From an uncultured Pelagibacteraceae bacterium (GTDB taxonomy: Bacteria; Pseudomonadota; Alphaproteobacteria; Pelagibacterales; Pelagibacteraceae), in assembly GCA_902615975.1 (NCBI GenBank), contig CACMRC010000004.1, positions 52,908 to 116,907 on the forward strand: DNA of 64,000 nt. Reading direction: 5' to 3'. Of this stretch, positions 40,912-61,101 are shown in pieces. Numbering within the stretch: position 1 is the stretch's first letter; every line of letters starts with the position of its first letter. Under the pieces are notes generated by a model. The model worked only from the letters and a program-made list of their open reading frames with translations. It did no database searches and had not been told where the DNA came from. The translations under genes and the position numbers were made by a program.

Positions 40912-42270
40912 TTAGCCTTTTACAACTTCTCTTGTATTTGCGTTGAAAGACTCTTTGAATGGAATATCCACAACTACTGCATCCACAGGTGTTCCTGGAG
41001 TGTCCGAGTATTTTTCTGGAAGATGAACTTTAAACTTAGTACCAACCTTATTTTTTGGAAATCCATTAGGGTTTAAAGTTCCATCAAACGGAACGTATCC
41101 CATAGCAATATTGGTTTTCTTCTCTGGATGCCACCATGGTGAAGTAATAAACCCAACTGGATCTCCACCACTTTCTGGTGATACTAGCCAAAAGTCTGGC
41201 GCATAATCGTCAATTGGTTTACCACCTAACTCCATTCCAACTAATTGAAGTTTATACGGTTTTTTTCCAGCTTTTATATCTGCTCCCATTTTTTCTAATG
41301 CAGTTTTACCAACATAATCAGCTTTTTTATTCCATTCACCTTTACCAGATAATGAAACTTGATAACCTAAATTACATTGAAACGGATTATGCTGTTGATC
41401 CATGTCTTGCCCCCAAGAAAGAATACCCGCTTGTATTCTTCTGTGGTGTGCAGGTGCAATCACCATCAATTTATGTTTTTTTCCTGCATCTAATACTGCG
41501 TTCCACATATCTTCAGCATATAAAGTCGCATTTCTTAAATATATTTCGTAACCAGCTTCTCCTGAAAAACCAGATTGAGAAATTACACAACTTCTTCCAC
41601 CAACCGTTGCTTCTGCCAATCCATAAAAAGGCATATTATCAAAATCAACTTGATCACCACAAAGGTCTTGCATTAAAGCTTTCGATTTAGGACCTTGAAT
41701 TTGTACTGGACATGCATCTATTTCCTCAATTGTACAATTAAATTTTCCATCTGCATTTACACCTTGCAAATACATTCCAATATCAGAATCTGATAACGAA
41801 AACCAAAATTCATCTTTTGAAATTCTTAAAAGAATTGGATCGTTTAAAACTCCTCCGTAAGCATTACATAATATTACATATCTTGCTCTCATAGGGGAAA
41901 TTTTTGTTGCATCTCTAGTTATAACGTAGTCAGTAAATTTTTCTGCATCTGGACCTTTAACTCTTATTTGTCTTTCAACAGCTACATTCCACATTGTCAC
42001 GTGGTTTACGATTGCATCGTACTCAACCATTGCTCCACCATCTTCAGGTTTTACATAACCTCTTGGATGATAAATACGATTGTATACAGTTGCTCTCCAA
42101 CAACCTGCCTGCATTGATAAATGCCAATAAGGTGACTTTCTTACCCTTGTTGAAATTAATAATTCAACTTTAGTTGGCCCACTCTGTCTTAAATTGTATG
42201 GTACTTCTCTATCTGATTGATCAACAGAAGTAACATGTTGTACTTTAGTATAGTCAAACTCTTTAGACAT
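40912..42270 (-). CDS. DmdA/GcvT-like tetrahydrofolate-dependent methyltransferase
   Basis: A 452-residue member of the GcvT/DmdA superfamily. HVTMWNVAVERQIRVKGPDAEKFTDYVITRD, GVLNDPILLRISKDEFWFSLSDSD, VQIQGPKSKALMQDL, ISQSGFSGEAGYEIYL and NPFQCNLGYQVSL follow the DMSP demethylase pattern as I remember it (W-x-VA-x-ERQ; NDP; DSD; IQGPKS). It is about 80 residues longer than SAR11 DmdA, with an N-terminal extension and insertions in the C-terminal part. DmdA moves a methyl group to THF, giving 5-methyl-THF. The next gene upstream is MetF-like and overlaps it by eight bases, fitting methyl-THF as product. Substrate unknown: DMSP, a betaine or an aromatic O-methyl ether are options. Confidence 0.75.
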   Translation of the reverse strand: MSKEFDYTKVQHVTSVDQSDREVPYNLRQSGPTKVELLISTRVRKSPYWHLSMQAGCWRATVYNRIYHPRGYVKPEDGGAMVEYDAIVNHVTMWNVAVERQIRVKGPDAEKFTDYVITRDATKISPMRARYVILCNAYGGVLNDPILLRISKDEFWFSLSDSDIGMYLQGVNADGKFNCTIEEIDACPVQIQGPKSKALMQDLCGDQVDFDNMPFYGLAEATVGGRSCVISQSGFSGEAGYEIYLRNATLYAEDMWNAVLDAGKKHKLMVIAPAHHRRIQAGILSWGQDMDQQHNPFQCNLGYQVSLSGKGEWNKKADYVGKTALEKMGADIKAGKKPYKLQLVGMELGGKPIDDYAPDFWLVSPESGGDPVGFITSPWWHPEKKTNIAMGYVPFDGTLNPNGFPKNKVGTKFKVHLPEKYSDTPGTPVDAVVVDIPFKESFNANTREVVKG

Positions 42271-42991
42271 AACTATTCTCCTTCAACCACTTGTTAGTTT
42301 CCTTCAAGCCGCCGAATGTATAAATGTGGAAGTTATCAGTATGCGATTTAACTTTCCCAATTAAATCATTAGGGTCTTTAGGTTTCAATAAATCTAATGC
42401 CTTAGTAAAATTAGATTTAAGAAAGTTAATGGAATTTTTTGCCCCTACAATATTAGCAAATTTAATTAAGCTAGATATTTTTAAAGGCCCAGTGATTCCC
42501 ACATGCACTGGTACGCTTTGCTTAGAAATAAAATCTATAATAGGCTGAGGATCAAGTAACCATTGTGTTACAATATAATCTGCGTAAGGCTTTTTATCTA
42601 TCATAGCTTTCTCTAAATCTGAGTCGGATATATCAGGACTCCCCTCAGGATGTCCAGCAATTCCTATTTTCATTTTTTCAAAATAACCAGTCTCTAAAAG
42701 TTGAAATGAACTATCAAATTTACCCGCTGGCTCTCTCCCACCTCCAATAATCAAGGCTTGCTTTACGCCTCCATCTTTGCATCTAGAAACATAATCTTTA
42801 AGCTCTTTTTCATCATGCATTGATCTAGCAGGAAAATGAGGTACGGGATTAAATCCTTTTTTTACAAGTTCTACTGCTTTGTCAGCAGTTTCTCTATAAT
42901 CACCTCCAGGTAGCATCGTTATATAAATGTCAGACAACGCTGGAACTGTATCAACCTCTGTTTTAGGACCTATTTCCAATGAAAAATTCAT
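42263..42991 (-). CDS. Short methylenetetrahydrofolate reductase-like protein
   Basis: A 242-residue protein with the MetF TIM-barrel pattern in compressed form: FSLEIGPKTEVDTVPAL at the N-terminus, PVPHFPARSMHDEKELKDYV, QALIIGGGREPAG and IGIAGHPEGSP near the middle, and YADYIVTQWLLDPQPIIDFI, matching the MetF order of strands and FAD/substrate loops. It is about 50 residues shorter than E. coli MetF. Paired with a DmdA-like methyltransferase it would oxidise 5-methyl-THF to methylene-THF. A precedent is the ligM-metF pairing in vanillate demethylation of Sphingobium. Overlaps the downstream gene by eight bases. Confidence 0.78.
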   Translation of the reverse strand: MNFSLEIGPKTEVDTVPALSDIYITMLPGGDYRETADKAVELVKKGFNPVPHFPARSMHDEKELKDYVSRCKDGGVKQALIIGGGREPAGKFDSSFQLLETGYFEKMKIGIAGHPEGSPDISDSDLEKAMIDKKPYADYIVTQWLLDPQPIIDFISKQSVPVHVGITGPLKISSLIKFANIVGAKNSINFLKSNFTKALDLLKPKDPNDLIGKVKSHTDNFHIYTFGGLKETNKWLKENSYV

Positions 42992-43048: not shown

Positions 43049-43936
43049 TTACTTTTTTAACTGACCTCTGTGCTTTTGAATTCTTTGTCCGTACTGTTGA
43101 GTTACTCTATCAAAGATAATTGCCAGAGCTACGATTGCTAAACCATTCATCATTCCAAGAGCTAAATATTGGTTGGAAATAGCCTGTAAAATAGGGACTC
43201 CCAAGCCTTTTACACCTATCATTGAAGCAATCACTACCATTGCTAAAGCCATCATAATCGTTTGGTTAATCCCAGCAAAAATAGTTGGTAGAGAAAGTGG
43301 GATTTGAACAGATCTTAATTTTTGCATCGGTGTTGCCCCAAAAGCTTCGCTAGCTTCTAAAGTTTCTTTATCAACTTCTCTAATCCCTAGATTTGTTAAT
43401 CTTACAATAGGGGGGAGAGCATAAATACATACAGCAAGCAAACCAGGCACTTTACCAATACCAAGAAGCATAATTATAGGTATAAGATACACAAAACTTG
43501 GAATGGTTTGCATCATATCTAAAACAGGTAAAATTGCTTTTTCTGCTCTAGCGGATTTTGACATTACAATTCCAATTGGTATTCCAACAACAATACAAAC
43601 TAATGTAGAAACAGATATTATTGCAACGGTCGCCATACAATTTTTCCACATTCCAAAATAGCCAATAACTATAAAACAAGCTACTGTGCCAATAACAAGC
43701 TTAATACTTCTTGATCCAATCCAAGCTAATAAAGCAAATACACCAATTACTAAAGGCCATGGACTGTTTACTAATAATTTTTCTAACCAAATTAAAAAAT
43801 GTAACAGTGGATCAAAAAAACCCTCAATCCCATCTCCATAAGCTCTTGAAAATTCTTTGAAACTAGAGTCAATTCCTTTTTTAAGCTCTCTAAGAGCTGT
43901 TCTATCCATTACAGGAATTTTATTAAAGAAGTCCAT
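43049..43936 (-). CDS. proW: Betaine-type ABC transporter permease
   Basis: A 295-residue ProW-like permease with about six spans (WPLVIGVFALLAWIGSRSIKLVIGTVACFIVIGYFG etc.). The ATPase-contact EAA loop is EASEAFGATPMQKLRSVQIPLSLPTI, and GIPIGIVMSKSARAEKAILPVLDMMQTIPSFVYLIPIIM is typical. It lies downstream of the binding-protein gene with a stable hairpin in between. There is no ATP-binding protein gene in this operon: the next genes are MetF-like and DmdA-like. The ATPase may come from the system at 17-20 kb or elsewhere. Confidence 0.88.
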   Translation of the reverse strand: MDFFNKIPVMDRTALRELKKGIDSSFKEFSRAYGDGIEGFFDPLLHFLIWLEKLLVNSPWPLVIGVFALLAWIGSRSIKLVIGTVACFIVIGYFGMWKNCMATVAIISVSTLVCIVVGIPIGIVMSKSARAEKAILPVLDMMQTIPSFVYLIPIIMLLGIGKVPGLLAVCIYALPPIVRLTNLGIREVDKETLEASEAFGATPMQKLRSVQIPLSLPTIFAGINQTIMMALAMVVIASMIGVKGLGVPILQAISNQYLALGMMNGLAIVALAIIFDRVTQQYGQRIQKHRGQLKK

Positions 43937-43985: not shown

Positions 43986-44996
43986 TTAAAGTGCTTTTTT
44001 GATTTTTTTTGCAGCATCACTTGAAACCCATTTACTCCAAACGCTCTCTTGAGTTTTAAGGAATTCAATTGCAGCATCAGCACCTTCTGCTTGGTTTTCA
44101 CCCATCCAAACTAACATACCGTTCATAACTGGACCTGGGTATGTTCTCTTCTTAAAGTATTCCATACCAGCACTTCCAGCTGTATTTTTGAAATTGTCAG
44201 TTACGATTGTGTAAACTTCAGATTTTGTCCATGAAGTTGCTTTAGGGTCTCCACATTCTTGTTCTGGTAAAACTATACATTTATCCCAGTTATCTTTTCC
44301 ACCCCAAGCTCCCATATCTACAGCTCTCATATCATATTTACCAATGATAGCTGTTGGTGACCAATAGTAACCAAACCAGTTTTCACCTCGCTCAGCAGCT
44401 TTAGCAATTGAACCATCTAATCCTGCAGCAGAACCTGTTTCAACAATAGCCCAACCTTTTGCTTCCATGCCAAAAGCTTTGTAAAGATTTCTATTACTTA
44501 GCTCACAGTTCCAACCTGGAGGACAAATATGAAATCCACCTTTTGATGGATCTTCTGGATGAGGAAACAGATCTGGTCTTGCTAAAATTGCTTCAGCAGT
44601 TGTTAGCTCTGGATGTTTTTTAAGTGTGTGAGGTAATACCCACCATCCTTCACCCAAACCAGTAATTGGCGCTTTATTAAGTGAGTGCATTTTTCCTTCG
44701 TCAACAGCTTTATTCAAAGCAATGATAGCAGCGTTAGCCCAAAATTCTGGAGCAACATCTGGCTCACCTTTTTCTTGCATAGATGTAAACGTAGGCATTG
44801 TAGCACCAGGTACTAATTCTACTGAACATCCGTAACCTTCTTCTAATATGATCTTATCAACTTCAGCCATAAAGTTTGCTGAAGCCCAGTTCATATTAGC
44901 GATCGTTATATTTCCACAAGCTGCATTTGCAACACTTCCAAAAGAAGTAAGACTAAACACAACAGCTAGTGAAAGAAGTATTCTTTTAATCTTCAT
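43986..44996 (-). CDS. proX: Betaine/choline-type ABC substrate-binding protein
   Basis: A binding protein of 336 residues from the ATG at 44996, preceded by GGGAGA; the track's start 24 bases upstream adds a non-signal extension. The signal peptide is MKIKRILLSLAVVFSLTSFGSVANA. The mature part is OpuAC-like (ITIANMNWASANFMAEVDKIIL; PDVAPEFWANAAI; GYYWSPTAIIG) with two Cys-containing loops (CPPGWNCELS; CIVLPEQECGD) that could form disulfides, and conserved Trp residues for a cation cage. It is distinct from the tmoX-like protein and longer. The ligand may be glycine betaine, choline or DMSP. It is divergent from the Rieske/bhmT operon. Confidence 0.82.
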   Translation of the reverse strand: MKIKRILLSLAVVFSLTSFGSVANAACGNITIANMNWASANFMAEVDKIILEEGYGCSVELVPGATMPTFTSMQEKGEPDVAPEFWANAAIIALNKAVDEGKMHSLNKAPITGLGEGWWVLPHTLKKHPELTTAEAILARPDLFPHPEDPSKGGFHICPPGWNCELSNRNLYKAFGMEAKGWAIVETGSAAGLDGSIAKAAERGENWFGYYWSPTAIIGKYDMRAVDMGAWGGKDNWDKCIVLPEQECGDPKATSWTKSEVYTIVTDNFKNTAGSAGMEYFKKRTYPGPVMNGMLVWMGENQAEGADAAIEFLKTQESVWSKWVSSDAAKKIKKAL

Positions 44997-45065
44997 TATA
45001 TCTCCCAACATTTGATTCATTTAAAAGTTAAATTGAACATATCGAGGCTAATAATGCAAATTTAA

Positions 45066-45267: not shown

Positions 45268-46455
45268 ATGAATTTAAATAAAAAATTATCAGACATCTTA
45301 GATCCAAATAAAATTGAAGTTGTTAAAAATCCTATAGAGAAAGCTCATGGATTACCTAATGAATGTTATTTGAATAATGATTATTTAGAGTTTGAGAAAG
45401 AAAAAATATTTAAAAATAATTGGACGATGATTGGGGTTGCGAGTTCTGTACCAAATCCAGGCAATGCAAAACCTTTTAATCTTTTAGGAATACCAATACT
45501 AATAGTTAGAAACAAAGAGAACGAAGTAAAAGTTTTTCATAACGTTTGTAGTCATAGAGGTTTCAAACTAGTTGATCAGGAATGTAAATTAAAAAATGTA
45601 ATAAGATGCCCTTATCATTCCTGGTCCTATGATTTTAATGGAAAATTAACTGTTACTCCACATATAGGAGGACTAGGAAAACATGAGGTTGAAGGGTTTG
45701 ATAAAAACAATAGTAACTTAAAAGAAATTAAATCAAATATTTGGATGGATTTAATTTTTATCAATATAAATTCTAATGCAAAACCATTTGAAGATTTTAT
45801 TAAACCTCTAGAGGACAGATGGTCTAAGTTTATTTCTAAAAAAGATCAAAAATTAATTAGACACTCAACTGATAACGGATATTTTAATATGACAGTAAAT
45901 AGTAATTGGAAATTTGCAATTGAGAATTATTGTGAAAGTTATCATTTGCCGTGGATACATCCAGAACTAAATAAAGTTTCAAATATTTCAGATCACTATC
46001 ATATTGAAGATGAGAATTTAAATTTTTCAGGACAAGGAAGTAATAAATATTCACAACAGTTTGATGGAAACATTAAATTTAAATGCTTTCCTAACTGGCC
46101 TACTGAACTTTCTGAAAAATCTGAATATGTATCATTATATCCAAACGTAATGTTAGGAATACATATTGATCATTTCTATGCATTTTGGTTAGAGCCAATT
46201 TCTAACAATCAAACTAAAGAACATTTTGAACTATATTATATTGGAGATGAAAGTGCTTCTAGTGATGAGTTTAAAGATATAAGAGCAAAAAATTTTGCAT
46301 TTTGGCAAGAAGTTATGAATGAAGATGTAACTGCAATAGAAGGAATGCAAAACGGCCGAAATTCACCAGCTTACAATGGTGGGAATTTTTCACCTGTAAT
46401 GGATACTCCTACTTTGATGTTTCATAAGTGGGTTGCAACTAACTTAACAAAATGA
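45268..46455 (+). CDS. Rieske oxygenase alpha subunit (betaine/choline monooxygenase type)
   Basis: A 395-residue Rieske non-haem iron oxygenase. The 2Fe-2S site is Cys94-x-His96 and Cys114-x2-His117 (NVCSHRGFK; IRCPYHSWSY). The mononuclear iron site has Glu223, His226 and His231 in FAIENYCESYHLPWIHPEL. Similar enzymes hydroxylate choline, glycine betaine, stachydrine or carnitine, and position directly upstream of bhmT and DMGDH argues for a quaternary amine, perhaps glycine betaine demethylation in parallel with BHMT. No ferredoxin reductase gene is nearby, so electrons must come from elsewhere. First gene of the long plus-strand run. Confidence 0.82.
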   Translation: MNLNKKLSDILDPNKIEVVKNPIEKAHGLPNECYLNNDYLEFEKEKIFKNNWTMIGVASSVPNPGNAKPFNLLGIPILIVRNKENEVKVFHNVCSHRGFKLVDQECKLKNVIRCPYHSWSYDFNGKLTVTPHIGGLGKHEVEGFDKNNSNLKEIKSNIWMDLIFININSNAKPFEDFIKPLEDRWSKFISKKDQKLIRHSTDNGYFNMTVNSNWKFAIENYCESYHLPWIHPELNKVSNISDHYHIEDENLNFSGQGSNKYSQQFDGNIKFKCFPNWPTELSEKSEYVSLYPNVMLGIHIDHFYAFWLEPISNNQTKEHFELYYIGDESASSDEFKDIRAKNFAFWQEVMNEDVTAIEGMQNGRNSPAYNGGNFSPVMDTPTLMFHKWVATNLTK

Positions 46456-46466
46456 GAGGGTAAATT

Positions 46467-47507
46467 ATGAAAAAAGATCTAATTACAAGATTAAATGAAG
46501 GTCCAATAATGTGTGCAGAAGGCTATCTTTTTGCAATGGAAAGAAGAGGTTATCTTTCAGCAGGTCCATTTGTTCCAGAAGTGGTTTTAGAACATCCAGA
46601 GGTAGTAACTCAATTACATCGAGAATTTATTAGAGCTGGTTCAGATGTTGTTCAGGCATTTACTTATTATGGTCATAGAGAAAAGTTGAGAATAATTGGT
46701 AAAGAACACTTGTTAGAACCAATGCAAAAAGGTGCTCTTAAAATTGCAAAAGATGCTGCAGCTGAGTTTAAAGATTTAGATCTTATGGTTTGTGGAGATG
46801 TGGCAAACACTAATGTATTTGATCCAGGTGATGCCAATACTCATAAACAGTGTCAACAAATGTATGAAGAACAAGTAGCATGGGCAAAAGAAGCTGGTGT
46901 TGATTTTGTTATTGCTGAAACAATAAGTTGGACTGACGAAATGAAAATTGCATTAAAAGCAATTAAAGATGCTGGACTTATTGCAGTTTGTAATTTTGCA
47001 ATCCCTAGAGGGGATAAAACTAGAGAAGGTCATAGTGCTGAGGATGCATGTAAGATGATGGAGGATTTAGGCGCTGATGTCGTTGGATTAAATTGTTACA
47101 GAGGACCCGAGATGACAATGAAACTTTTAAAAAAAGTTAGAGATAAAGTTTCATGCCATGTATCAGGACTTCCTGTTCCTTATAGAACTACTGAAGAAGA
47201 ACCTGGTTTCTTGAATATCACTGATCATGGATGTGACTGTATTCCAGGTGGAAATGCGTTTCCAGTTGCTTTAGACAACTTATTTTGTAACAGATTTGAA
47301 ATGGCAGAATTTGCAAAAGATTGTGTAAAAAATAAAATAAATTTTATTGGTATATGTTGTGGTGCTGAAGCTCACCACGTTAGAGAAATGTCAGTTGCGA
47401 TTGGAAAGAAACCAATTTCAATGAAATATATGCCTGACATGAGTAAACATTTTCATCACGGTACTGATAAATCTTTGAAAAAAGTAAACAAGGAAATTAA
47501 ATATTAA
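46467..47507 (+). CDS. bhmT: Betaine-homocysteine S-methyltransferase
   Basis: A 346-residue zinc-dependent methyltransferase of the Pfam S-methyl_trans family. Zinc Cys are Cys210 (VGLNCYRGP) and Cys297-Cys298 (GICCGAEAHHVREM), matching the BHMT ligand set. The barrel also shows AEGYLFAMERRGYLSAGPFVPEVVL and FAETISW-type motifs (DFVIAETISWTDEM). It transfers a methyl group from glycine betaine to homocysteine, giving methionine and dimethylglycine. The stop overlaps the DMGDH start (TAATG), so product and next enzyme are coupled. SAR11 often controls bhmT by SAM riboswitches; with an 11-base gap before it there is no room for one here. Confidence 0.9.
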   Translation: MKKDLITRLNEGPIMCAEGYLFAMERRGYLSAGPFVPEVVLEHPEVVTQLHREFIRAGSDVVQAFTYYGHREKLRIIGKEHLLEPMQKGALKIAKDAAAEFKDLDLMVCGDVANTNVFDPGDANTHKQCQQMYEEQVAWAKEAGVDFVIAETISWTDEMKIALKAIKDAGLIAVCNFAIPRGDKTREGHSAEDACKMMEDLGADVVGLNCYRGPEMTMKLLKKVRDKVSCHVSGLPVPYRTTEEEPGFLNITDHGCDCIPGGNAFPVALDNLFCNRFEMAEFAKDCVKNKINFIGICCGAEAHHVREMSVAIGKKPISMKYMPDMSKHFHHGTDKSLKKVNKEIKY

Positions 47508-49912
47508 TGGAAAAGAATGCCAAAGTAGTAATCATAGGAGGTGGTGTAGTTGGGTGCTCTATACTTTATCATCTATCTAAATTTGGATTAAAGGATTGTA
47601 TTTTACTTGAGAGAAATGAACTAACATCAGGTTCTTCTTGGCATGCTGCAGGAAATGTTCACGTGATTTCATCTGACCCTAATATCTCTAGGATGATGGC
47701 TTACACAATAGGTTTATACAAAGAGATTGAAAAAGAATCTGGTCACTCAACTGGATTTAAACCTAGCGGGGGTTTTTACTTAGCGTCAAATGAAGTGTGG
47801 GCTGATTATTTAAAGAGAGAAAGATCAAAAGCAAGATACATGGGACTTGATCAAGAATTTATTTCTCTTGAGGAAGTGAAAAAAAAACATCCTTTAATTG
47901 ATCCATCTCGATATTTGTTAGCTTTATGGGATCCTATTGATGGTGAAGTCGATCCATCAGGAGTTACTTACGCTTTTGCAAAAGCAGCAAAAGTTCATGG
48001 TGGAAAATATTACACTCACACTGTCGTAAAAGATACGAAACAAAAAAAGGACGGAACTTGGGATGTCTTTACTGAAAAAGGAAACATTAATGCTGAAATA
48101 GTAATTAATGCAGGTGGTTTGTGGGCAAGAGAAGTTGGACAATTAGCTGGACTTAATCTCCCTGTTCAACCAATGGAGCATCATTATTTAATCACTGAAC
48201 CTATTCCAGAAATTGAAGCAATGGGTGATCAAAGATTGCCTATAGGAACAGATTTTGAAGGAAATATTTACTTTAGACAAGAAGGAAAGGGAATGTTGCT
48301 TGGAACTTATGAACCAAAATCTACTCCTTGGAAAGTAGAAGGAACTCCAATGAATTTTGGACATGAGCTACTTGAGCCAAAGTTAGATAATATTGAAGAT
48401 AGACTGGCAATTGGTTTTGAGAGAATGCCAGCATTAGAGCGTGCAGGTATTAAGAATATAGTTAATGGACCTTTTACTTTTGGTCCAGACGGAAGTCCTC
48501 TTATTGGTCCAGTACCAGGAATGAAAAATTATTGGGTTGCAGTTGGTGTAATGGCTGGATTTTGCCAAGGTGGTGGTGTTGGAAAATGTATTGCTGAGTG
48601 GATTATTGATGGAGAACCTTCCATTGATGTTTGGGCAATGGATGTTGCTCGTTTTGGAGATTACGCTTCACCTCAATATGGAACAATCAAATCCTCAGAA
48701 AATTATGAACGAAGATTTATTATGACATTTCCAAATGAAACTTTACCAAAAGGAAGAAAACAAAAAACTACTGCACTATATGATCGTTTTGTAAATCAAG
48801 GTGCTGTTATGGGAGATAGTTTTGGATTGGAAAATGTTTTGTGGTTTGCAAACAATAAAGAAGATGCTCATGAGGAACCAACAATAAAAAGATCAAGATC
48901 GCATGACTATGTATCAAAAGAAGTTATTAATGTAAGAGAAAACGTTGGTTTAATCGAAGTTGCCAACTTTTCAAAACATGAATTCAAAGGTCCTGATGCT
49001 AGAAAGTTTTTAGATCACATAATGGCTGGAAGACTTCCAAAACCAGGAAGAATATCTTTATCCCCAATGTTGTCATATAGAGGAAAGTTGTGTGGTGATT
49101 TAACTGTAGCTTGCTTAGATGAAAATGAATTCATTGTATTTGGTTCTGGAGCTGCTCAAGAAATGCATAGACGTTGGTTTGAGAGTCATTTAGATAAATT
49201 TAATTTAAGTTATTCTAATAGATCTGATGAGTATCATGGATTGTCTGTTGCAGGACCTAACTCAAGGAAAGTTTTAGAAAAAATTGTAAGAGACGATGTT
49301 TCAAATGAAAAATTTAAATTTAGAGACTCTAGAAGAATGTTTGTTGGGGGAGTTCCAGCAATAATAAATAGAATTTCATTTACTGGTGAACTCGGATATG
49401 AAATTTATGTAGCACCTCACTATCAATTAAAACTTTATGAAGAATTAATGGAGGCTGGAAAAGAATTTAATATTAAACCATTTGGTGGAAGAGCATTAAT
49501 GTCAATGAGATTAGAGAAAAATTGGGGAGCTTGGACATTAGATTATAGACCAGATTTTACCGCAAAAGAGACAGGTTTAGATGCTTTTATTAATTGGGAT
49601 AAAGAGTTTATTGGTAAAGAAAGTGCACAAAAGGAAAATTCTTCAAATAAACTCATACCATTAATTGTTGAAACAAATGATATTGATGTAACAAATAACG
49701 AAGCTGTCATGAATGGAAATGAAAGTATAGGTTACGTTACTTCAGGTGGTTTTGCTCATTTTGTAAATAAAAGTGTGGCGTTTACTTTTGTTGATCAAAA
49801 AAACATTAATTCTGAAAATAAAATTCAAGTAGAGATAAATGGAGATTTATTTAATTGCTCAATTATTAAAGAACCACTTTATGATCCAAGTGGTCAAAAA
49901 ATGAGAAGCTAA
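47507..49912 (+). CDS. dmgdh: Dimethylglycine dehydrogenase (FAD + GcvT domains)
   Basis: An 801-residue protein with an N-terminal DAO domain (VVIIGGGVVGCSILYHLSKFG; the LTSGSSWHAAGNVH segment has the His that carries covalent FAD in mammalian DMGDH), a FAO_M linker (TFGPDGSPLIGPVPGM; GDYASPQYG) and a C-terminal GcvT module from about residue 430 (IEVANFSKHEFKGPDARKFLD, VAGPNSRKVLEKI, ISFTGELGYEIYVAPH, FIGKESAQ). It demethylates dimethylglycine to sarcosine, giving methylene-THF, with electrons passed to ETF, whose genes are in this same run. Directly coupled to bhmT. A second paralogue lies at 56.9 kb. Confidence 0.88.
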   Translation: MEKNAKVVIIGGGVVGCSILYHLSKFGLKDCILLERNELTSGSSWHAAGNVHVISSDPNISRMMAYTIGLYKEIEKESGHSTGFKPSGGFYLASNEVWADYLKRERSKARYMGLDQEFISLEEVKKKHPLIDPSRYLLALWDPIDGEVDPSGVTYAFAKAAKVHGGKYYTHTVVKDTKQKKDGTWDVFTEKGNINAEIVINAGGLWAREVGQLAGLNLPVQPMEHHYLITEPIPEIEAMGDQRLPIGTDFEGNIYFRQEGKGMLLGTYEPKSTPWKVEGTPMNFGHELLEPKLDNIEDRLAIGFERMPALERAGIKNIVNGPFTFGPDGSPLIGPVPGMKNYWVAVGVMAGFCQGGGVGKCIAEWIIDGEPSIDVWAMDVARFGDYASPQYGTIKSSENYERRFIMTFPNETLPKGRKQKTTALYDRFVNQGAVMGDSFGLENVLWFANNKEDAHEEPTIKRSRSHDYVSKEVINVRENVGLIEVANFSKHEFKGPDARKFLDHIMAGRLPKPGRISLSPMLSYRGKLCGDLTVACLDENEFIVFGSGAAQEMHRRWFESHLDKFNLSYSNRSDEYHGLSVAGPNSRKVLEKIVRDDVSNEKFKFRDSRRMFVGGVPAIINRISFTGELGYEIYVAPHYQLKLYEELMEAGKEFNIKPFGGRALMSMRLEKNWGAWTLDYRPDFTAKETGLDAFINWDKEFIGKESAQKENSSNKLIPLIVETNDIDVTNNEAVMNGNESIGYVTSGGFAHFVNKSVAFTFVDQKNINSENKIQVEINGDLFNCSIIKEPLYDPSGQKMRS

Positions 49913-50538
49913 TGGCACAAAAAGATGTAGGGAACAAAATTCCAATTTATAAACTTAAAACTACTGATGAAGTTATGAGGTACTACGATGAGTGGGGAGA
50001 AAAAGATAAGTATAATAAAGATATGGTTGATTGGAACTATACAGGCCCAAAGGAAACCGTAGCAACTTTCAATAAGTACGAAAATAATAAAGACACACTA
50101 ATCTTTGATGCAGGCTGTGGAACAGGTCTAGTTGGAGTTGAATTAAAAAAATATGAGTTTGATAATTTTCATGGAGCCGATTTATCTCAAACTTTATTAG
50201 ATACTGTACCAAAAGACCTTTATCAAAAATTAGTAAAGGTTGATTTAAATAAACCAATAGAGGTTGAGGACAACTTTTATGGTGGAGTTATGTGTGTCGG
50301 AACATTTACTTTTGGGCATGTAAAACCAAATGCATTAGATGAATTTATAAGAATAACAAAACCAGGTGGTTTAATTTGCTTCACGATTAATGAAGGAATT
50401 CATGAAGAGTATGGTTTTGATAAAAAAATTGATATACTGAAAGATAGCAAGAAGTGGGAAGAAGTAGAATTTTTTAAATCTGACTATATTGCGAGCAAAG
50501 ATGTTAACGCATGGTTAGGTTTGTATAGGGTATTATGA
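49912..50538 (+). CDS. Class I SAM-dependent methyltransferase
   Basis: A 208-residue protein with SAM-binding motif I DTLIFDAGCGTGLVGVEL, an acidic loop after the second strand (FHGADLSQTLLDTV) and motif IV-like YGGVMCVGTFTFGHV. The N-terminal VMRYYDEWGEKDKYNKDMVDWNYTGP is typical of small-molecule methyltransferases of the Methyltransf_11/25 type. Substrate unknown. The start shares TAATG with the DMGDH stop and the end overlaps the next gene (ATGA). A methyltransferase inside a demethylation operon could regenerate or detoxify a methylated metabolite. Confidence 0.85.
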   Translation: MAQKDVGNKIPIYKLKTTDEVMRYYDEWGEKDKYNKDMVDWNYTGPKETVATFNKYENNKDTLIFDAGCGTGLVGVELKKYEFDNFHGADLSQTLLDTVPKDLYQKLVKVDLNKPIEVEDNFYGGVMCVGTFTFGHVKPNALDEFIRITKPGGLICFTINEGIHEEYGFDKKIDILKDSKKWEEVEFFKSDYIASKDVNAWLGLYRVL

Positions 50539-51770
50539 GGTTTAGTAGAAAAATAGCTCCTGAGATAAAACCAAGACAAAATTTTATTACTAAAAAAAAA
50601 TTAAGAGAAGATGAGATTGATTTTGATAAATTAAGATCATATCGTTTAGATAGGGTTAGAAAAGAGTTAGTAAAAAACAATTTAGAGGCTTGTATTCTCT
50701 TTGATCCAGTGAATGTTCGTTATGCTTTAGATACTGTAAACATGAGTGTCTATAATATGCATAACTTAACAAGATATTGTTTTGTACCAGTCAATGGACC
50801 AACTATTCTTTATGAGTATTTTAATTGTGAAATATTATCGAAGCATTTAAATCTAATTGACGAAATCAGACCTGCAATCACATGGGATTATTTTAGCAAT
50901 GGAGATCAAGCAAATTTACAATTATCAAAATGGATAAATGAAGTTAAAGATTTATCAAAAAATTATTTTAAAACTAAAAAAATTGCAATCGATGTTTTAA
51001 ATGGTCCTGCGGTTACAGCTTTAAATAAAGAAGGAATTGAAGTTGTAGATGCAAAATTGATTTTAGAACAAGCAAGAGTAATAAAATCACATGATGAATT
51101 GACTTGTATGAAAGCAGCAATAGAAGTTGCAGAAAAAGGTGTATCAAAAATGAGATCAGATCTTAAACCAGGAATGACTGAAGATGAATTGTGGTCAATT
51201 TTACATAAAACGAATATTGAAAATGGAGGTGAGTGGATTGAGTGCAGGATTTTATCGTCTGGTGAAAGAACAAATCCATGGATGCAAGAGAGTAGTAATA
51301 AAGTTTTGCAACAAGGAGAAATTGTTGCTTTTGATACAGATATGGTTGGTCCCTATGGATACTGTGCTGACATATCAAGAGCCTTTGTAGTTGGACATAA
51401 ATTTAATGATGAGCAAAAAAAACTATATTCAATGGCTAGAAATCAAATTGATCATAATTTTAGATTAATAAAACCAGGAATGAGTTTTAAAGAATTTATA
51501 AAAAGATCTTGGGTTTTGCCTGATGAGTATTATGGAAATAGGTATTCATGTATGGTTCATGGAATTGGGTTGTGTGATGAGTGGCCTCAAATAAGATATC
51601 CAACTGATGGTGGAGAAGAAGGTGGAACTTTTGAGAAGAACATGACAATTACACTTGAGAGTTATATTGGTAAAGTTGGTGGTAAAGAAGGTGTAAAACT
51701 TGAACAACAGTATCTTGTAGGTGAAAATGGACTTGAATTAATGTCCCATCATCCGTTAGAAGATATTTAA
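50535..51770 (+). CDS. dddP: DddP-like M24-fold protein, candidate DMSP lyase
   Basis: A 411-residue pita-bread (M24) fold protein. Putative metal ligands are Asp267, Asp269, Asp279, His342, Glu375 and Glu390 (AFDTDMVGPYGYCADISR; VHGIGLCDEWPQI; TLESYIGK; VKLEQQ). Their spacing equals the iron ligands reported for Ruegeria DddP as I recall them (D295, D297, D307, H371, E406, E421), including the extra D-x-D. GGEWIECRILSSGERTNPWMQE also resembles DddP. DddP cleaves DMSP to DMS and acrylate. Ordinary M24 peptidases usually lack the D-x-D. The betaine-operon context is unusual, so another C-N/C-S cleaving or peptidase role remains possible. Overlaps both neighbours by one to four bases. Confidence 0.7.
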   Translation: MRFSRKIAPEIKPRQNFITKKKLREDEIDFDKLRSYRLDRVRKELVKNNLEACILFDPVNVRYALDTVNMSVYNMHNLTRYCFVPVNGPTILYEYFNCEILSKHLNLIDEIRPAITWDYFSNGDQANLQLSKWINEVKDLSKNYFKTKKIAIDVLNGPAVTALNKEGIEVVDAKLILEQARVIKSHDELTCMKAAIEVAEKGVSKMRSDLKPGMTEDELWSILHKTNIENGGEWIECRILSSGERTNPWMQESSNKVLQQGEIVAFDTDMVGPYGYCADISRAFVVGHKFNDEQKKLYSMARNQIDHNFRLIKPGMSFKEFIKRSWVLPDEYYGNRYSCMVHGIGLCDEWPQIRYPTDGGEEGGTFEKNMTITLESYIGKVGGKEGVKLEQQYLVGENGLELMSHHPLEDI

Positions 51771-52180
51771 TGAAAATTATTTTAGTAATGGGTTTGCCTG
51801 GAGCTGGCAAAACAACTCTAGCAGATGAAATGGCACCACTCTTAAATGCAAAAAGACTGAATGCAGACGAAGTGAGAAAAGCAGCAAACGATTGGGATTT
51901 TTCTGAAGAGGGAAGAGTAAGACAAGCAAAAAGAATGGCTGAAGCTGCTTTAAAATTAAAAGCAGAAGGTCATTATGTAATTGCAGATTTTATTGCACCA
52001 ACTCCTCAAGCAAGAAGCTTGTTTCCAGCGGATTTTAGAGTTTGGGTCGATACAATTAAAGAAGGAAGATTTGAAGATACAAATCAAATGTTTGTTAATC
52101 CTAAGAATTTTGATTTTCACGTAACAACTCAGGATGCAAAAAGTTGGGCACCAAAAATAATAGAGGAGATAAAAAAATGA
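51770..52180 (+). CDS. Small P-loop kinase (adenylylsulfate-kinase-like)
   Basis: A 136-residue P-loop protein. Walker A is VMGLPGAGKTTLADEMAPLL; NADEVRKAANDWDFSEEGRVRQAKRM and VIADFIAPTPQARSLFP resemble the APS kinase substrate loops, but it is shorter than CysC (about 175-200) and lacks clear lid conservation. It probably phosphorylates a small hydroxyl compound. It is followed by a nucleotidylyltransferase with an ATGA overlap, so the two likely act in sequence (kinase then nucleotidyl transfer). Confidence 0.7.
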   Translation: MKIILVMGLPGAGKTTLADEMAPLLNAKRLNADEVRKAANDWDFSEEGRVRQAKRMAEAALKLKAEGHYVIADFIAPTPQARSLFPADFRVWVDTIKEGRFEDTNQMFVNPKNFDFHVTTQDAKSWAPKIIEEIKK

Positions 52181-52551
52181 CACACCAATGGGATAACAAA
52201 AAACCAACAGCACAAATGCTAGGAAGATGGCAACCTTTTCACGATGGACATTATACTTTGTTTAAAGAAATAATTAAAAAGACTGAACAAGTTTGTATTC
52301 AAATTAGAGATGTACAAGGTGTAGATGATAATCCTTTTGATTTTGAAACAGTAAAAAAAAACATTGAAGACAAATTAAATCCTGAATTTGAAGGACAATT
52401 TAAAATAATGTTAGTACCTAATATTACAAATATTTGTTATGGTAGGGGAGTTGGATATAAGATTGAAGAAATAGTTTTGGACGAAGAAACTCAAAAAATA
52501 TCAGCTACAAAAATAAGAGCAAAAATGAGAGAAGAGGGAAAGTTAAAATAA
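52177..52551 (+). CDS. Small nucleotidylyltransferase (HxGH superfamily)
   Basis: A 124-residue protein from ATG 52177 (the track's TTG start at 52144 lies within the preceding gene; GAGGAG precedes the ATG). The HxGH motif is in MLGRWQPFHDGHYTLFKEI and the C-terminal ISATKIRAKM corresponds to the ISSTxxR signature. This superfamily includes NMN, phosphopantetheine, glycerol-3-phosphate and phosphocholine-type nucleotidylyltransferases. Length is at the small end. Next to a kinase, it could activate a phosphorylated head group to an NDP-derivative. Substrate unknown. Confidence 0.75.
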   Translation: MTHQWDNKKPTAQMLGRWQPFHDGHYTLFKEIIKKTEQVCIQIRDVQGVDDNPFDFETVKKNIEDKLNPEFEGQFKIMLVPNITNICYGRGVGYKIEEIVLDEETQKISATKIRAKMREEGKLK

Positions 52552-52557
52552 AATTAA

Positions 52558-53409
52558 ATGAACGATAGACTCAAGACTATTGTAGATTTAAAAAAATATC
52601 CAATATACGATTTAGATTCACCAATAATTAAAAATCTTGTAAAAAAATGTAAAGAAGAACTGGATCAAAATAGTTGTTCAACAATTCCAAATTTTATTTT
52701 GCCTAAATCACTTAAGGTAATGAATTCTGAGTTGGAAAAACAATTAGATGAAGTTTATATGTCTAAAGAAAGTATAAATGCTTACTTGTATGCAAAGGAC
52801 GATCCCTCATTACCAAAAGATCATCCAAAAAGAACTTTTATGAATAGATACAATGGATATTTAAATTCAGATTGTTTTCCAAAAGATTCCGAAATGAAAT
52901 ATCTATACGAAACAGAGGAACTTTTAAATTTTGTATCTGCTTGTTTAGGTGTTTCTCCTATTTACAGATGGGCAGATCCTTTAGCCTGTCATGCTTATAA
53001 TGTTATGAAACCAGACGGAGTACTCCCATGGCATTTTGATAGTTGTGAATTTACACTAAGTTTAATGATACAAAAACCTGAGAAGGGTGGAGTATTTGAG
53101 TATTGTCCAAACATTAGAGAACCTGGAAATGAAAATTTTAAAGAAGTTCAAAAAGTTATAGCCGGAGATAGAACTAAAGTAAGACAATTGAAGTTAGAGC
53201 CAGGAGATTTACAAATATTTAAAGGAAGATTTACTTTACATAGAGTAACAAAGGTTGAGGGCCAAAAATCAAGATATATGTGTATTCCAGCTTATGTTTT
53301 AGATCCATGGAGAGTAAACACCCCAGAACATTCCAAAGCTATTTATGGTAAAGTTTTGCCAATTCATATAGAAAGAAATCAGGCCAGATCCGATGGATTA
53401 ACTGATTAA
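52558..53409 (+). CDS. Fe(II)/2-oxoglutarate-dependent oxygenase (HalD/BesD-like family)
   Basis: A 283-residue non-haem oxygenase. The facial triad is His159-x-Asp161 (LPWHFDSCEFTLSLMI) and His228 (FTLHRVTKV), with Arg239 (KSRYMCIPAY) for 2-oxoglutarate. GGVFEYCPNIREP and LKLEPGDLQIFKGR are typical of the HalD/BesD group, which includes amino acid halogenases, but the carboxylate ligand is retained here, so hydroxylation is more likely than halogenation. The substrate could be an amino acid or a betaine-type compound. Six bases downstream of the nucleotidylyltransferase and adjacent to a crotonase gene. Confidence 0.8.
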   Translation: MNDRLKTIVDLKKYPIYDLDSPIIKNLVKKCKEELDQNSCSTIPNFILPKSLKVMNSELEKQLDEVYMSKESINAYLYAKDDPSLPKDHPKRTFMNRYNGYLNSDCFPKDSEMKYLYETEELLNFVSACLGVSPIYRWADPLACHAYNVMKPDGVLPWHFDSCEFTLSLMIQKPEKGGVFEYCPNIREPGNENFKEVQKVIAGDRTKVRQLKLEPGDLQIFKGRFTLHRVTKVEGQKSRYMCIPAYVLDPWRVNTPEHSKAIYGKVLPIHIERNQARSDGLTD

Positions 53410-54189
53410 ATGACTAGTAAAATTAAAATTAAAAAAAATAACAACGACGTTTCATCAATTATTATTGATGAACCAAAAACTTATAACTCTTTATCATTCA
53501 AAAATCTTTCAGATTTATTAAAGGCATTAAAAAAATTAGATGCTGATAAAAAAGTTAAAGTAATAATATTAGAGGGTGCCGGTAAAGGATTTAGTGCAGG
53601 TCATAATTTAAAAGAAGTTAGAGGTTTAAAAAAGAGAGATAAATATTTAAAATTATTTAATCTTTGTTCAAAAGTAATGCTTCAAATTGTTGAAGGTAGA
53701 AAACCTGTAATTGCTAAAGTTCATGGAGCTGCATTTGCAGCTGGCTGTCAATTGGTTGCAAGTTGTGATTTAGCTTATAGTACTAAGGACGCATTGTTTG
53801 CTACTCCTGGTGTAAATATTGGTTTGTTTTGTAGTACACCTATGGTTGCTGTCAGTAGAAAGGTAAATCGAAAACCTATGATGAAAATGTTGCTAACTGG
53901 AGAACCTATCAATGCAAATTATGCAAAAGAAATAGGCTTGATAAATGATAATTTTTCAAAAGCCAAATTAAACAACGAAGTCTTAAAAGTAGCAAATAAA
54001 ATTGCTTCTAAATCTAATTTAACAATAAAAATTGGAAAGCAAGCTTTTTACAAACAATTAGAAATGCCATTAAGTAAAGCTTACGCTTATACAAGTAAAA
54101 TGATGACTCTAAATATGATGGCAATGGATGCAAAAGAAGGAATTTCTGCTTTTTTAGAAAAAAGAAGACCAAATTGGAAAAATAAATAG
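53410..54189 (+). CDS. ECHDC3-like crotonase family protein
   Basis: A 259-residue enoyl-CoA hydratase/isomerase superfamily protein. The oxyanion segments are GKGFSAGHNLKEV and VHGAAFAAGCQLVASCDLAY. The position of a catalytic Glu reads FATPGVNIGLFCSTP, with Gly in place of Glu, as in the ECHDC3 subgroup, so classical hydratase activity is doubtful. Members are sometimes annotated as enoyl-CoA hydratase by default. The start directly follows the oxygenase stop and its own stop precedes a GTG-started small gene. Role unknown. Confidence 0.82.
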   Translation: MTSKIKIKKNNNDVSSIIIDEPKTYNSLSFKNLSDLLKALKKLDADKKVKVIILEGAGKGFSAGHNLKEVRGLKKRDKYLKLFNLCSKVMLQIVEGRKPVIAKVHGAAFAAGCQLVASCDLAYSTKDALFATPGVNIGLFCSTPMVAVSRKVNRKPMMKMLLTGEPINANYAKEIGLINDNFSKAKLNNEVLKVANKIASKSNLTIKIGKQAFYKQLEMPLSKAYAYTSKMMTLNMMAMDAKEGISAFLEKRRPNWKNK

Positions 54190-54374
54190 TGATAAAAAAT
54201 ATTTTAATAGTAGTTTTTATTATTATTGGTGCATTGGTAATTTATAATTTTAAGGATCATAATCAAAAAAGAGCAATAGATGCATGTATTGCTGGTAGCC
54301 AAAAACTAGAAAAACCAATGACAGTTCCTGAAGCTAAAATATTTTGTGAAGAACAAATTAAAAATAATAAATGA
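54189..54374 (+). CDS. Small membrane-anchored protein (61 aa)
   Basis: A 61-residue ORF starting with GTG that overlaps the crotonase stop by one base. An N-terminal hydrophobic anchor (ILIVVFIIIGALVIYNF) is followed by a polar part with two Cys (RAIDACIAGSQ; AKIFCEEQIK) that could form a disulfide in the periplasm. The end overlaps the next gene (ATGA). Small proteins of this form are common in SAR11. Function unknown. Confidence 0.65.
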   Translation: MIKNILIVVFIIIGALVIYNFKDHNQKRAIDACIAGSQKLEKPMTVPEAKIFCEEQIKNNK

Positions 54375-54805
54375 CTGATATCAAAGAAGTTCTTTCTAAA
54401 TATAAATCAATTGCAATGGTAGGGGTTAGTAACGATCCAACAAAAGCATCAACTATAGTTATGAAATATATGCAAAAATATGGATTTAAAGTTTATCCTG
54501 TCAATCCTAGAGCCGAGGGTCAAAAAATTCTAGGAGAAGAAGTTTTCGCTAAAATATCTGATATTAATGATCAGGTTGATATTGTTGATGTTTTCAGACC
54601 ATCAAAAGAAGTTTATGCTATTGCAGAAGATGTAGTTAAAATTGGTGCTAAAGTTTTATGGTTACAGCTCGGTATACGAGACGAAAAGGCAAAAGAATTG
54701 ATGGAAAAAAATGATATTAAGTATATTGAAAATAAATGTACTAAAATGGAATATCAAAAATATTTTTTAAAAGTTAGACAAGCTTTTCCAGTTTTGACTG
54801 ACTAA
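54371..54805 (+). CDS. CoA-binding (YccU-type) protein
   Basis: A 144-residue Rossmann-type CoA_binding domain protein. IAMVGVSNDPTKASTIVMKYMQKYGFKVYPVNPRA is the nucleotide loop, IVDVFRPSKEVYAIAEDVVKIGAKVLWLQLGI the second half; IENKCTKMEY closes it. Related proteins bind CoA; the reaction is unknown and the domain also forms the N-terminus of succinyl-CoA synthetase alpha and acyl-CoA synthetases. Coupled by ATGA and TAATG overlaps to both neighbours. Its position beside a crotonase hints at acyl-CoA handling. Confidence 0.82.
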   Translation: MTDIKEVLSKYKSIAMVGVSNDPTKASTIVMKYMQKYGFKVYPVNPRAEGQKILGEEVFAKISDINDQVDIVDVFRPSKEVYAIAEDVVKIGAKVLWLQLGIRDEKAKELMEKNDIKYIENKCTKMEYQKYFLKVRQAFPVLTD

Positions 54806-56415: not shown

Positions 56416-56426
56416 TTATTTTTAAA

Positions 56427-56888
56427 ATGAAAACTATCCTTAAAGTATTAATTTTATTATTGATATCTTCGACTTTTTCAAATGCTGAATTATTAAATCC
56501 AAATAGTACTATTAAACCAAAAGAAGTTATAAAGATTCAACTTAATGGACTTCAAAAAAATGACTCAAAATTCAAGGATAGTGGAATAGAGCAAACATGG
56601 AATTTTGCTCACCCAAACAATAAGAGAGTAACAGGACCATTAAGCAAATTTAAAATGATGTTAAAAAGTGACTCTTATGGGATGATGATTAATCACCTAA
56701 GTCATACAATTACTGAGCTTGGAAGCAGTGACAAATGGGCACAATTTGAAGTAATCATTCTTGATCAAAATAAGATCTATCACAAGTTTAATTGGCAAGT
56801 TGAAAAGTATACTTTGGATGGAAGTTTAAAAGACTGTTGGTTAACTACAATGGTATCTAGCCCAATCCCTCTAGGAAGCTCAATTTGA
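56427..56888 (+). CDS. DUF4864-like exported protein
   Basis: A 153-residue protein with a signal peptide (MKTILKVLILLLISSTFSNA) and an NTF2-like mature region: VIKIQLNGLQKNDSKFKDSGIEQTWNFAHPNN, KFKMMLKSDSYGMMI and YHKFNWQVEKYTLDGSLKDCWLTTMVS fit DUF4864, a periplasmic family of unknown function. It lies 11 bases after the BT1-type gene and 55 bases before the second DMGDH-like gene. That is the largest gap in the run and could hold a weak promoter; none is clear to me. Confidence 0.65.
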   Translation: MKTILKVLILLLISSTFSNAELLNPNSTIKPKEVIKIQLNGLQKNDSKFKDSGIEQTWNFAHPNNKRVTGPLSKFKMMLKSDSYGMMINHLSHTITELGSSDKWAQFEVIILDQNKIYHKFNWQVEKYTLDGSLKDCWLTTMVSSPIPLGSSI

Positions 56889-56943
56889 TTTTCAACATAC
56901 ATTTTTGTTTCGTAATAATTAAAAATTTAGTAGGAATCGCTGA

Positions 56944-59376
56944 ATGAAAACAAAAACTAAAGTCGTAGTAGTTGGTGGAGGAGTAGTAGGTGTAAGTGCT
57001 CTTTATCACCTAGCAAAAAAAGGTTGGTCTGACGTTGTCCTTGTTGAGAGAAAAGAGTTAACTTCAGGATCTACTTGGCATGCAGCTGGTTTATTGCCTT
57101 TGTTTAATATGAGTTATTCTGTAGGACAACTACATAAATATGCAGTTAATCTTTATAAAACACTTGAAGAAGAAACTGGAAAAAATGTTGGATTTAGTGT
57201 TGTTTCAAATATTCGTTTAGCAAGCACAAAAGATAGGATGGATGAATACCATCAATACGCAGGTGTCGCGCGAACTATCGGAGTAGATGTTAAATTTTTG
57301 AAACCAGAACAAGTAAAAGAAATTTGGCCATTGTGTCATACAGATGATTTAGTTGGCGCAATACAACATCCTGAAGATGGATATATTCAACCAGCAGATT
57401 TAACACAAGCATTGGCAACAGGTGCAAGAAATAGAGGAGCAGAAATTTATAGAAACACAACTGTCCTATCAATGAGACAAACTAAAGATGGATGGATTGT
57501 AGAAACAGATAAGGGATCAATAGAATGCGAACATGTTATTTCTTGTTCAGGGAATTTTGCAAGACAAACAGGTGAAATGGTAGGATTAGATATTCCAGTA
57601 ATACCTGTTGAACATCAATACATTGTTACAGAACCGCATCCTGCAATTCAAAAAAGAAAAAAAGATGGATTACCAGAAATGGGAGTTTTAAGAGATAGTG
57701 ATAGCAGATGGTATATGAGAGAAGAAGCTGGAGGATTAATTTTAGGCCCTTATGAAGATGGTGCACCAGCTTGTTATGTAGAGGGGCCATCAAAAAATTC
57801 TGAATATGAATTATTTCAAGAAGACTTAGACAGATTAGCTCCACATATAGAGGGAGCAATTCATAGAGTTCCTGCATTTGGAGAAGTTGGAGTAAAGAAA
57901 GTTTATAATGGAGCAATCTGTTATACTCCAGATGGTAATCCAATTGTTGGACCAGCTTGGGGACTTAAGAATTTTTGGATTAATGAAGGACATAGTTTTG
58001 GAATAACAGCAGCAGGTGGTGCAGGTTGGCAACTAGCAGAGTGGATAGTTGATGGTGAACCTACAATTGACATGTTAGGAGTCGAACCAAGACGTTATGG
58101 TAATTATGCAACTAAATCTTATTTAAAAGCAAAAAATGAAGAAGCATACAGTCATGTATTTATTGTCCATTATCCAGATGAAGAAAGACCAGCAGCAAGA
58201 CCACTAAGAACAGCTCCTTGTTATGAAAGAATGAAAAATTTAGGTGCTGTGTTTGGTCAAAAGTTTGGATGGGAAAGACCTAATTTCTTTGCAACAGATG
58301 GAATGGAGCAAAAAGATGATTGGTCATTTAGAAGATCAAAATGGTTTGATGCTATTAAAAAAGAATGTCAAAATGTAAAACAAAACGTAGGTCTTTTAGA
58401 TATGACTGCATTTGCAAAATGTAGAATTAGAGGGCCTAAGGCAGAGGAATTTTTAGATTATCTAGTAGCTAATAAACTTCCAAAAAAGATTGGAAGGATA
58501 AATTTATGTCATGCCTTGAACACTAAAGGAGGAGTACATTCAGAATTTACGATAATGAAAGAAGCAGAAAATAGTTATTATTTAGTTTCTGCCGGAGCAA
58601 ATTTAAGATTAGACCATGATTGGATCCAAAAATGGATGCCAGATGATGGATCTGTTATTTTTGAAGATCTAACTAACAGTACAGGAGTTTTGGTAGTAGC
58701 TGGTCCAAAAGCCAGACAATTAATGCAAAAGGTTTCAACAGATGACTTTTCAAATGAAAATTTCAAATGGCTAACTGCAAAAAATGTAAATGTTGGATAC
58801 GCTCCAGTAAATGCAATGAGAGTAAACTTTGTTGGTGAGCTTGGTTGGGAATTACATCATCCAATTGAATATCAAAATCATATTTTTGATAAATTAATGG
58901 AAGCGGGAAAAGATTTAGGAATTAAACCTTTTGGAATTAGAGCTATGAATAGTTTAAGAGTTGAAAAATCTTACAAGCTAGTTGGAACAGAATTATCAAT
59001 TGAATATTCACCATATGAGTCTGGTCTTGATAGATTTGTTCATCCAAATAAAGGAAACTTTATTGGGTTAGAAGCACTTAATAAATGGAGAGAAAAAGGT
59101 TTTGATAATAAATTGGTCACTTTAGAGGTTCACAATACTAAAGATGCAGATGTGCTTGGAAATAACCCAATTTTTAAAGACGGAAAAGTTGTTGGAAGAG
59201 CAACCGGAGGTGAATTTGGGTTTAGATTAGATAAATCAATAGCACTCGCGATGGTTAAACCTGACTGTTCGAATGTGGGCGACAAATTACAAGTTGATAT
59301 ATTAGGTGAAATGTATGACGCTACCGTCTTGGATGAGAGTCCATACGATTCAGAAAATAATTTATTGAGAGCTTAA
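56944..59376 (+). CDS. Second DMGDH/SARDH-type FAD-GcvT dehydrogenase
   Basis: An 810-residue paralogue of the DMGDH at 47.5 kb. DAO domain: [21 protein letters not shown] with the covalent-FAD His in [14 protein letters not shown]; linker: [16 protein letters not shown] and [12 protein letters not shown]; GcvT module from about residue 440: [60 protein letters not shown]. It presumably oxidises sarcosine (SARDH) or dimethylglycine and feeds ETF, whose beta subunit gene starts at its stop (TAATG). With one enzyme per demethylation step, dimethylglycine and sarcosine could be divided between the two copies; which is which is not clear from sequence. Confidence 0.85.
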
Positions 59377-61078: not shown

Positions 61079-61101
61079 TCCTTACAGTTAAAAACTAGAG
61101 T

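Follow-up and report, generated by a model that had tools for sequence, protein, structure and literature searches.

The window, i.e., the entire stretch of 64,000 nucleotides analyzed here, carries on its minus strand a pair of overlapping genes, of which the upstream partner, metF (42263..42991), codes for a short MTHFR of 242 aa and the downstream one (40912..42270) for a 452-aa protein of the GcvT fold, here named DmdL and predicted to be a THF-dependent methyltransferase. The initial annotation had placed both ORFs correctly, and the 8-nt overlap between them (42263..42270, minus strand) is real; its length is exactly the same in all 78 SAR11 loci that allowed a measurement. This constancy points to a conserved, probably translational, coupling, and chance adjacency of DmdL and MetF is ruled out by the overlap together with the control loci considered below. 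The closest named relatives of the window, at 92–99% identity, are genomes of uncultured Pelagibacteraceae and of Candidatus Pelagibacter ubique, and the window can thus be assigned to SAR11 (Pelagibacteraceae). Of 61 genomes, including that of the window, 52 have a DmdL ortholog at an identity of at least 79%, most of the misses being incomplete genomes, and across the two families of SAR11 the identity lies at 84–99%. In a sister genus, two complete genomes (G152 and G415) are without DmdL, MetF and DmdA alike; both look like freshwater LD12, a lineage in which betaine and DMSP metabolism are absent (PMC6018831).

Upstream on the same strand lie genes for a ProW/OpuAB-type betaine ABC permease (43049..43936) and an OpuAC-type substrate-binding protein (43986..45020), which had been taken to deliver the substrate of the module. 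This part of the initial annotation is weak: proW precedes the pair in 43 of 74 SAR11 loci, with a divergent Rieske gene there instead in 23, the OpuAC-type gene is likewise variably linked, no such ABC genes were found beside DmdL in the other lineages, and no ATPase gene adjoins the OpuAC/ProW genes in the window copy, a ProV-type ATPase and a double permease being encoded elsewhere in the window (17363-20396). The case for the transporter as part of the unit is weakened by this patchy linkage. Divergently, on the plus strand, follow genes for a Rieske oxygenase alpha subunit only remotely related to GbcA (45268..46455; 130 bits against a cut-off of 670), a betaine-homocysteine-methyltransferase-like (BHMT-like) protein of the accepted type of SAR11 betaine demethylase (46467..47507), and a dimethylglycine/sarcosine dehydrogenase-like (DMGDH-like) protein with DAO and GCV_T domains, predicted to take the next methyl groups (47507..49912). 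A second DMGDH-like gene on the same strand (56944..59376) is followed by those for ETF subunits and ETF-QO (59376-62721). Two segments of the window (10562-31716 and 45268-62721) form an island of methylated-amine genes, which besides the two DMGDH-like proteins, ETF and ETF-QO includes a TMAO demethylase (1084 bits; cut-off 1100), a glutamine-synthetase-type protein, SoxB and a SoxA-like protein; a 283-aa protein matching halogenase-type families (HalD, WelO5) is encoded at 52558-53409, and GcvT domains occur at nine places in the 1.19 Mb of the genome. In the other SAR11 family (f2), the MetF–DmdL genes are divergent from formate-THF ligase, and in one of its genera (g3) a second, sub-cut-off DmdA-like protein (L091:10151-11293; 372 bits) directly follows DmdL and precedes DMGDH and SoxB.

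Membership of DmdL in the GcvT/DmdA fold superfamily is evident from its GCV_T domain (Pfam, 1.3e-39; the GCV_T_C match is weak), its fold and its conserved folate-site residues. Within the superfamily, it scores 224 bits against the DmdA model NF009133, where the cut-off is 410 and the true DmdA of the same genome reaches 582, 147 bits against a required 300 with the GcvT model (a separate GcvT is present in the genome), 34 bits against 580 with the LigM/DesA models NF047885 and NF047633, and far below the requirement of the TMAO demethylase model. In two maximum-likelihood trees, the first of which has long branches and uncertain deepest joins, DmdL forms a clade of its own (100/100), joined by one divergent protein (L056). 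This clade is sister to one of DmdA plus other aminomethyltransferases (AMT) rather than inside it, and GcvT, sarcosine oxidase, DMGDH and LigM all branch outside. A GcvT identity is ruled out by the sub-cut-off score and the absence of clustering with GcvT, and a LigM/DesA identity by the score and the different clade. The phylogeny agrees with the initial annotation in placing DmdL outside the proven DmdA, GcvT and LigM clades; since it falls in neither the DmdA nor the GcvT clade, the grouping that would have spoken against that annotation is not observed. The protein is also, as had been stated, longer than SAR11 DmdA (~370 aa for the DmdA of the same genome).

An AlphaFold model of DmdL, which rose from a pLDDT of 65 with 21 close orthologs as input to 87 once distant relatives were added, has the DmdA structure 3tfh as its best match (TM 0.93 by target length). 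Asp144, Glu242 and Tyr244 are invariant in DmdL and align with Asp108, Glu204 and Tyr206 of DmdA, i.e., with the GcvT/DmdA folate site. A single Trp, numbered W171, has been described as key to DMSP contact in DmdA (PMC7487153); by our own mapping, which uses the spacing to the conserved E-x-Y, it equates with W197 of 3tfh, and at this position all 29 DmdL sequences have Phe (Phe235), the DmdA rows of the alignment having Trp in six cases and Tyr in three. Other DmdL-specific residues, among them Trp58, Arg59, Arg65, His275, Trp286, Gln288, Tyr303 and Trp379, are retained by almost every one of the 29 sequences, whether bacterial or archaeal. Residues 1-36 are modeled with very low confidence despite a near-invariant run (SVDQSDR..P.NLRQSG) kept across Alphaproteobacteria, which suggests that the N-terminal extension binds a partner or folds upon binding, and MetF may be such a partner.

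The 242-aa partner lies just under the Pfam cut-off for MTHFR (23 bits against 24), and its closest structure match is the solved MTHFR 7xg9 (5e-32), which we take to be the Sphingobium SYK-6 enzyme. Homology extends over the catalytic barrel, and the Glu and Gln positions are conserved, with Glu6, presumed to be catalytic, and Gln143 invariant among 17 MetF sequences. It had been noted as being about 50 residues shorter than usual, and relatives from other bacteria indeed mostly have 293–317 aa; the SAR11 protein begins right at the FSLE motif and has neither the N-terminal stretch nor the C-terminal tail, with some loop residues missing as well. In the genome, which is 95% complete, it is the single MTHFR match, MetE was not found, and the MetH model matches only the BHMT-like protein. 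With a sole MTHFR and neither MetE nor MetH found, oxidation is the sensible direction for MetF, and methyl-THF is presumably oxidized by it in the SAR11 cell. Hence, the oxidative running of MetF proposed in the initial annotation gains support, and the ligM-metF precedent invoked there proves apt in view of the match to 7xg9. The description of the module as dedicated is too strong: as the only MTHFR of the genome, MetF must also serve DmdA.

Outside SAR11, a sample of 386 alphaproteobacterial genomes yielded DmdL orthologs at 64–81% identity in scattered families. In three small genomes (L071-L073), the genes for sarcosine oxidase subunits, DMGDH, MetF and DmdL are consecutive on one strand; another locus (L083) has DmdL, MetF, formate-THF ligase and DMGDH in this order, with the sarcosine oxidase genes divergent; and at four more (L078, L079, L080 and L082), DMGDH and sarcosine oxidase adjoin DmdL. 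Five other non-SAR11 loci (L074-L077 and L084) have no betaine or C1 genes near DmdL, and three genomes with DmdL yielded no MetF of this type. Within ~9 kb, MetF occurs at 15 of 25 alphaproteobacterial DmdL loci as against none of 36 DmdA/AMT control loci, and DMGDH at 17 of the 25 as against 3 of the 36. Counted per family, the Fisher p-values are 0.024 for MetF and 0.017 for DMGDH, or 0.0024 and 0.0032 with three haloarchaeal families included, the tests being post hoc, the families not fully independent and some of the locus stretches cut short. A genome-wide search for BHMT and the corrinoid MTTB family as alternative first-step enzymes found neither a close BHMT nor an MTTB in nine of the genomes with DmdL; DMGDH lies next to DmdL in six of these nine, and several SAR11 genomes in the sample are likewise without a close BHMT.

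DmdL is also encoded, at 50–57% identity, on 16 haloarchaeal plasmid records (megaplasmids). In Haladaptatus salinisoli, a stretch of ~28 kb combines two FolD-like proteins, pabAB, formate dehydrogenase, formate-THF ligase, FolP and DmdL with GlyA (serine hydroxymethyltransferase), MetF, two FAD oxidoreductases, IlvA (threonine ammonia-lyase) and a BCCT transporter, and variants of this cassette occur in Haloarcula, Halorientalis, Halobellus, Salinigranum and Halomicrococcus. In BLAST searches, the haloarchaeal FAD oxidoreductases match DMGDH-type queries in other lineages, the FAD protein of Haloarcula marismortui having DAO and GCV_T domains. The cassettes thereby hold nearly every other step of a route from glycine betaine via dimethylglycine, sarcosine, glycine and serine to pyruvate, along with C1 oxidation to CO2, and for the first demethylation these stretches offer no recurring candidate other than DmdL. 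A linkage of the DMG-oxidase and BCCT genes in haloarchaea was noted earlier, with no enzyme for the first step (Anderson et al. 2011, PMC3102087). The haloarchaeal DmdL clade is nested within alphaproteobacterial DmdL, next to L084 (98/99), a position that speaks for a transfer from bacteria. On megaplasmid islands (L214-L223 and L254), genes of folate synthesis (folP, pabAB, dihydrofolate reductase or folE) lie with those for C1 oxidation and betaine, which suggests that THF metabolism was acquired jointly with the pathway. Proteins of the creatininase family recur in four cassettes (L216, L221, L222 and L223), most of which also have AstE/AspA-family and uncharacterized ~355–430 aa proteins.

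From this combination of fold, neighbors and distribution, we consider it very likely that DmdL transfers a methyl group to THF and that MetF then oxidizes the product, with the transfer and the direction of MetF both read from homology and gene content. The donor is less firmly indicated; genomic context, namely the proximity of DmdL to the remaining genes of the betaine pathway in lineages as unrelated as Alphaproteobacteria and haloarchaea, makes glycine betaine the probable one. The methyl-to-THF transferase coupled to MetF of the initial annotation is thus retained, while its unknown methylated substrate is narrowed by these contexts to glycine betaine. DmdL would bind THF in its GcvT/DmdA fold and methylate it at N5 with one methyl group taken from a quaternary ammonium compound, likeliest glycine betaine; the products, dimethylglycine and 5-methyl-THF, would be formed independently of B12. 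MetF would convert the latter to 5,10-methylene-THF, from which FolD, formate-THF ligase and formate dehydrogenase could derive NAD(P)H and ATP, and the remaining two methyl groups would be taken off by dimethylglycine and sarcosine dehydrogenases. Taken together, the pair probably acts as a B12-independent glycine betaine:THF methyltransferase feeding an oxidative MetF. Neither a GcvT-type betaine demethylase nor a B12-free betaine:THF methyltransferase was found in the open-access library searched. We lean, with some reserve, towards DmdL as the first member of a novel class of enzymes: a glycine betaine:THF methyltransferase of the GcvT fold that consists of a single protein, needs no corrinoid, is widespread in SAR11 and was passed from Alphaproteobacteria to haloarchaea. 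In HTCC1062, 14C-methyl betaine is converted to CO2 with negligible incorporation (PMC3160333), which would fit a THF-linked first step better than BHMT alone, albeit that the first methyl was not singled out in that experiment.

Certain observations weigh against the betaine reading, among them the five non-SAR11 loci without betaine or C1 genes and the three genomes without a MetF of this type described above. Nor do we know of any case in which a quaternary ammonium compound is shown to pass a methyl group to THF unaided by a corrinoid. In SAR11, BHMT and a Rieske oxygenase, either of which could carry out the first step, are often encoded as well, the DMGDH-like proteins are a broad family that may act on other N-methyl compounds, and the creatininase- and aspartoacylase-family neighbors in haloarchaea could hint at another substrate. 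Thus, DmdL might be a THF methyltransferase for a different osmolyte or N-methyl compound (choline, carnitine, proline betaine, homarine or a creatine-derived one) whose product passes to DMGDH/Sox, and we regard this as unlikely, though still deserving of weight, since the BCCT and OpuAC transporters are not betaine-specific, the creatininase-family and aspartoacylase-type genes recur in several haloarchaeal cassettes, and quaternary amines are not separable by context alone. However, GlyA, IlvA, two DMGDH-like proteins and C1 oxidation fit the route from glycine betaine through glycine and serine to pyruvate, and the cassettes share no recurring genes for ring opening or for other catabolism specific to one substrate. 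It is improbable that betaine is in fact demethylated by the divergent Rieske oxygenase or by BHMT, with DmdL merely aiding folate C1 balance, e.g., as a methyl-/methylene-THF shuttle or a regulator. SAR11 betaine demethylation has been assigned to BHMT (PMC12478193), and the Rieske gene, besides standing next to MetF in the 23 SAR11 loci mentioned above, recurs in distant form in the Haloarcula marismortui cassette; nevertheless, no Rieske gene lies near DmdL in stretches from six other haloarchaeal strains, the Rieske protein is only distantly GbcA-like, many DmdL-bearing genomes are without a close BHMT, and DmdL is the constant part.

The kinship with DmdA raises readings centered on DMSP. 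The guess of Sun et al. 2011 (PMC3160333) that the enzyme performs the second DMSP demethylation is favored by this kinship and by the similar metagenome abundance of the two genes in SAR11, and the searched genomes of SAR11 family f1 have both DmdL and DmdA, except genus g5. Against this stand six DmdL-bearing genomes without any other DmdA-like protein and others without a DmdA above the family cut-off, the haloarchaeal DmdL among betaine/C1 genes, the Phe at the reported DMSP-specific Trp position, and the expression data, in which no mRNA change is listed for either gene of the HTCC1062 pair in sulfur-limited exponential phase (PMC5069961). The occurrence of DmdL without DmdA and in haloarchaea leads us to reject this as the general function, and we hold it to be a quite doubtful one overall. 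Most improbable of all is DmdL as an alternative DmdA, a second DMSP demethylase: its fold and conserved residues are nearest to DmdA, but its score lies well under the DmdA cut-off, its clade is separate, the substrate-site Trp is replaced, true DmdA co-occurs in SAR11, and the contexts elsewhere are those of betaine and C1 metabolism.

In the sea, glycine betaine is one of the major osmolytes, and few heterotrophs of the ocean are as abundant as SAR11. In the accepted BHMT route, the first methyl group ends up in methionine, but the cells oxidize betaine methyls to CO2; a B12-free betaine:THF methyltransferase, if DmdL is one, would explain both this release of CO2 and the SAR11 genomes without a close BHMT. 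It would likewise explain what an extremely conserved gene does in SAR11, a question left open since 2011, fill the first step of the haloarchaeal betaine pathway, and represent, to our knowledge, a new kind of enzyme.

The pair as such is not a new sighting. Sun et al. 2011 (PMC3160333) described SAR11_1265 (AMT) next to metF (SAR11_1264) in HTCC1062 as being of unknown substrate, so that neither the two genes nor the view of MetF as an oxidative enzyme is new to the literature. Judging from how the genes are ordered and described and from their near-universality in SAR11, we regard the window pair as very probably orthologous to it; what differs is the proposed substrate, DMSP in the published guess and betaine, from the wider context, here. 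Transcripts of the two HTCC1062 genes fall together in stationary phase (Smith et al. 2016, PMC5069961). With DmdA (PDB 3tfh, NF009133), DmdL shares the fold, the folate-site residues and the expected methyl-to-THF chemistry, while it differs in its ~25–30% identity to true DmdA, its length (452 vs 369 aa), its own clade, the change of Trp197 to Phe235, a ~38-residue N-terminal extension rich in invariant positions, and its linkage to MetF/DMGDH/Sox rather than to DMSP genes. The LigM/DesA and MetF system of Sphingobium SYK-6, which acts in vanillate/syringate O-demethylation, parallels the proposed module in coupling a GcvT-fold demethylase that yields methyl-THF to an oxidative MetF, and its MetF is of the same subfamily as that of SAR11; however, DmdL lies outside the LigM clade and its context is betaine, not aromatics. 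The net reaction proposed here, betaine + THF to dimethylglycine + methyl-THF followed by MetF, is that of MtgBCD and MetF2 in Ruegeria pomeroyi (PMC12478193), but Mtg is corrinoid-dependent and unrelated, whereas DmdL would need no B12. BHMT, on the other hand, would share with DmdL the single-enzyme, B12-free demethylation of glycine betaine, yet it has another fold and uses homocysteine as the acceptor, so that its product is methionine, not an oxidizable methyl-THF.
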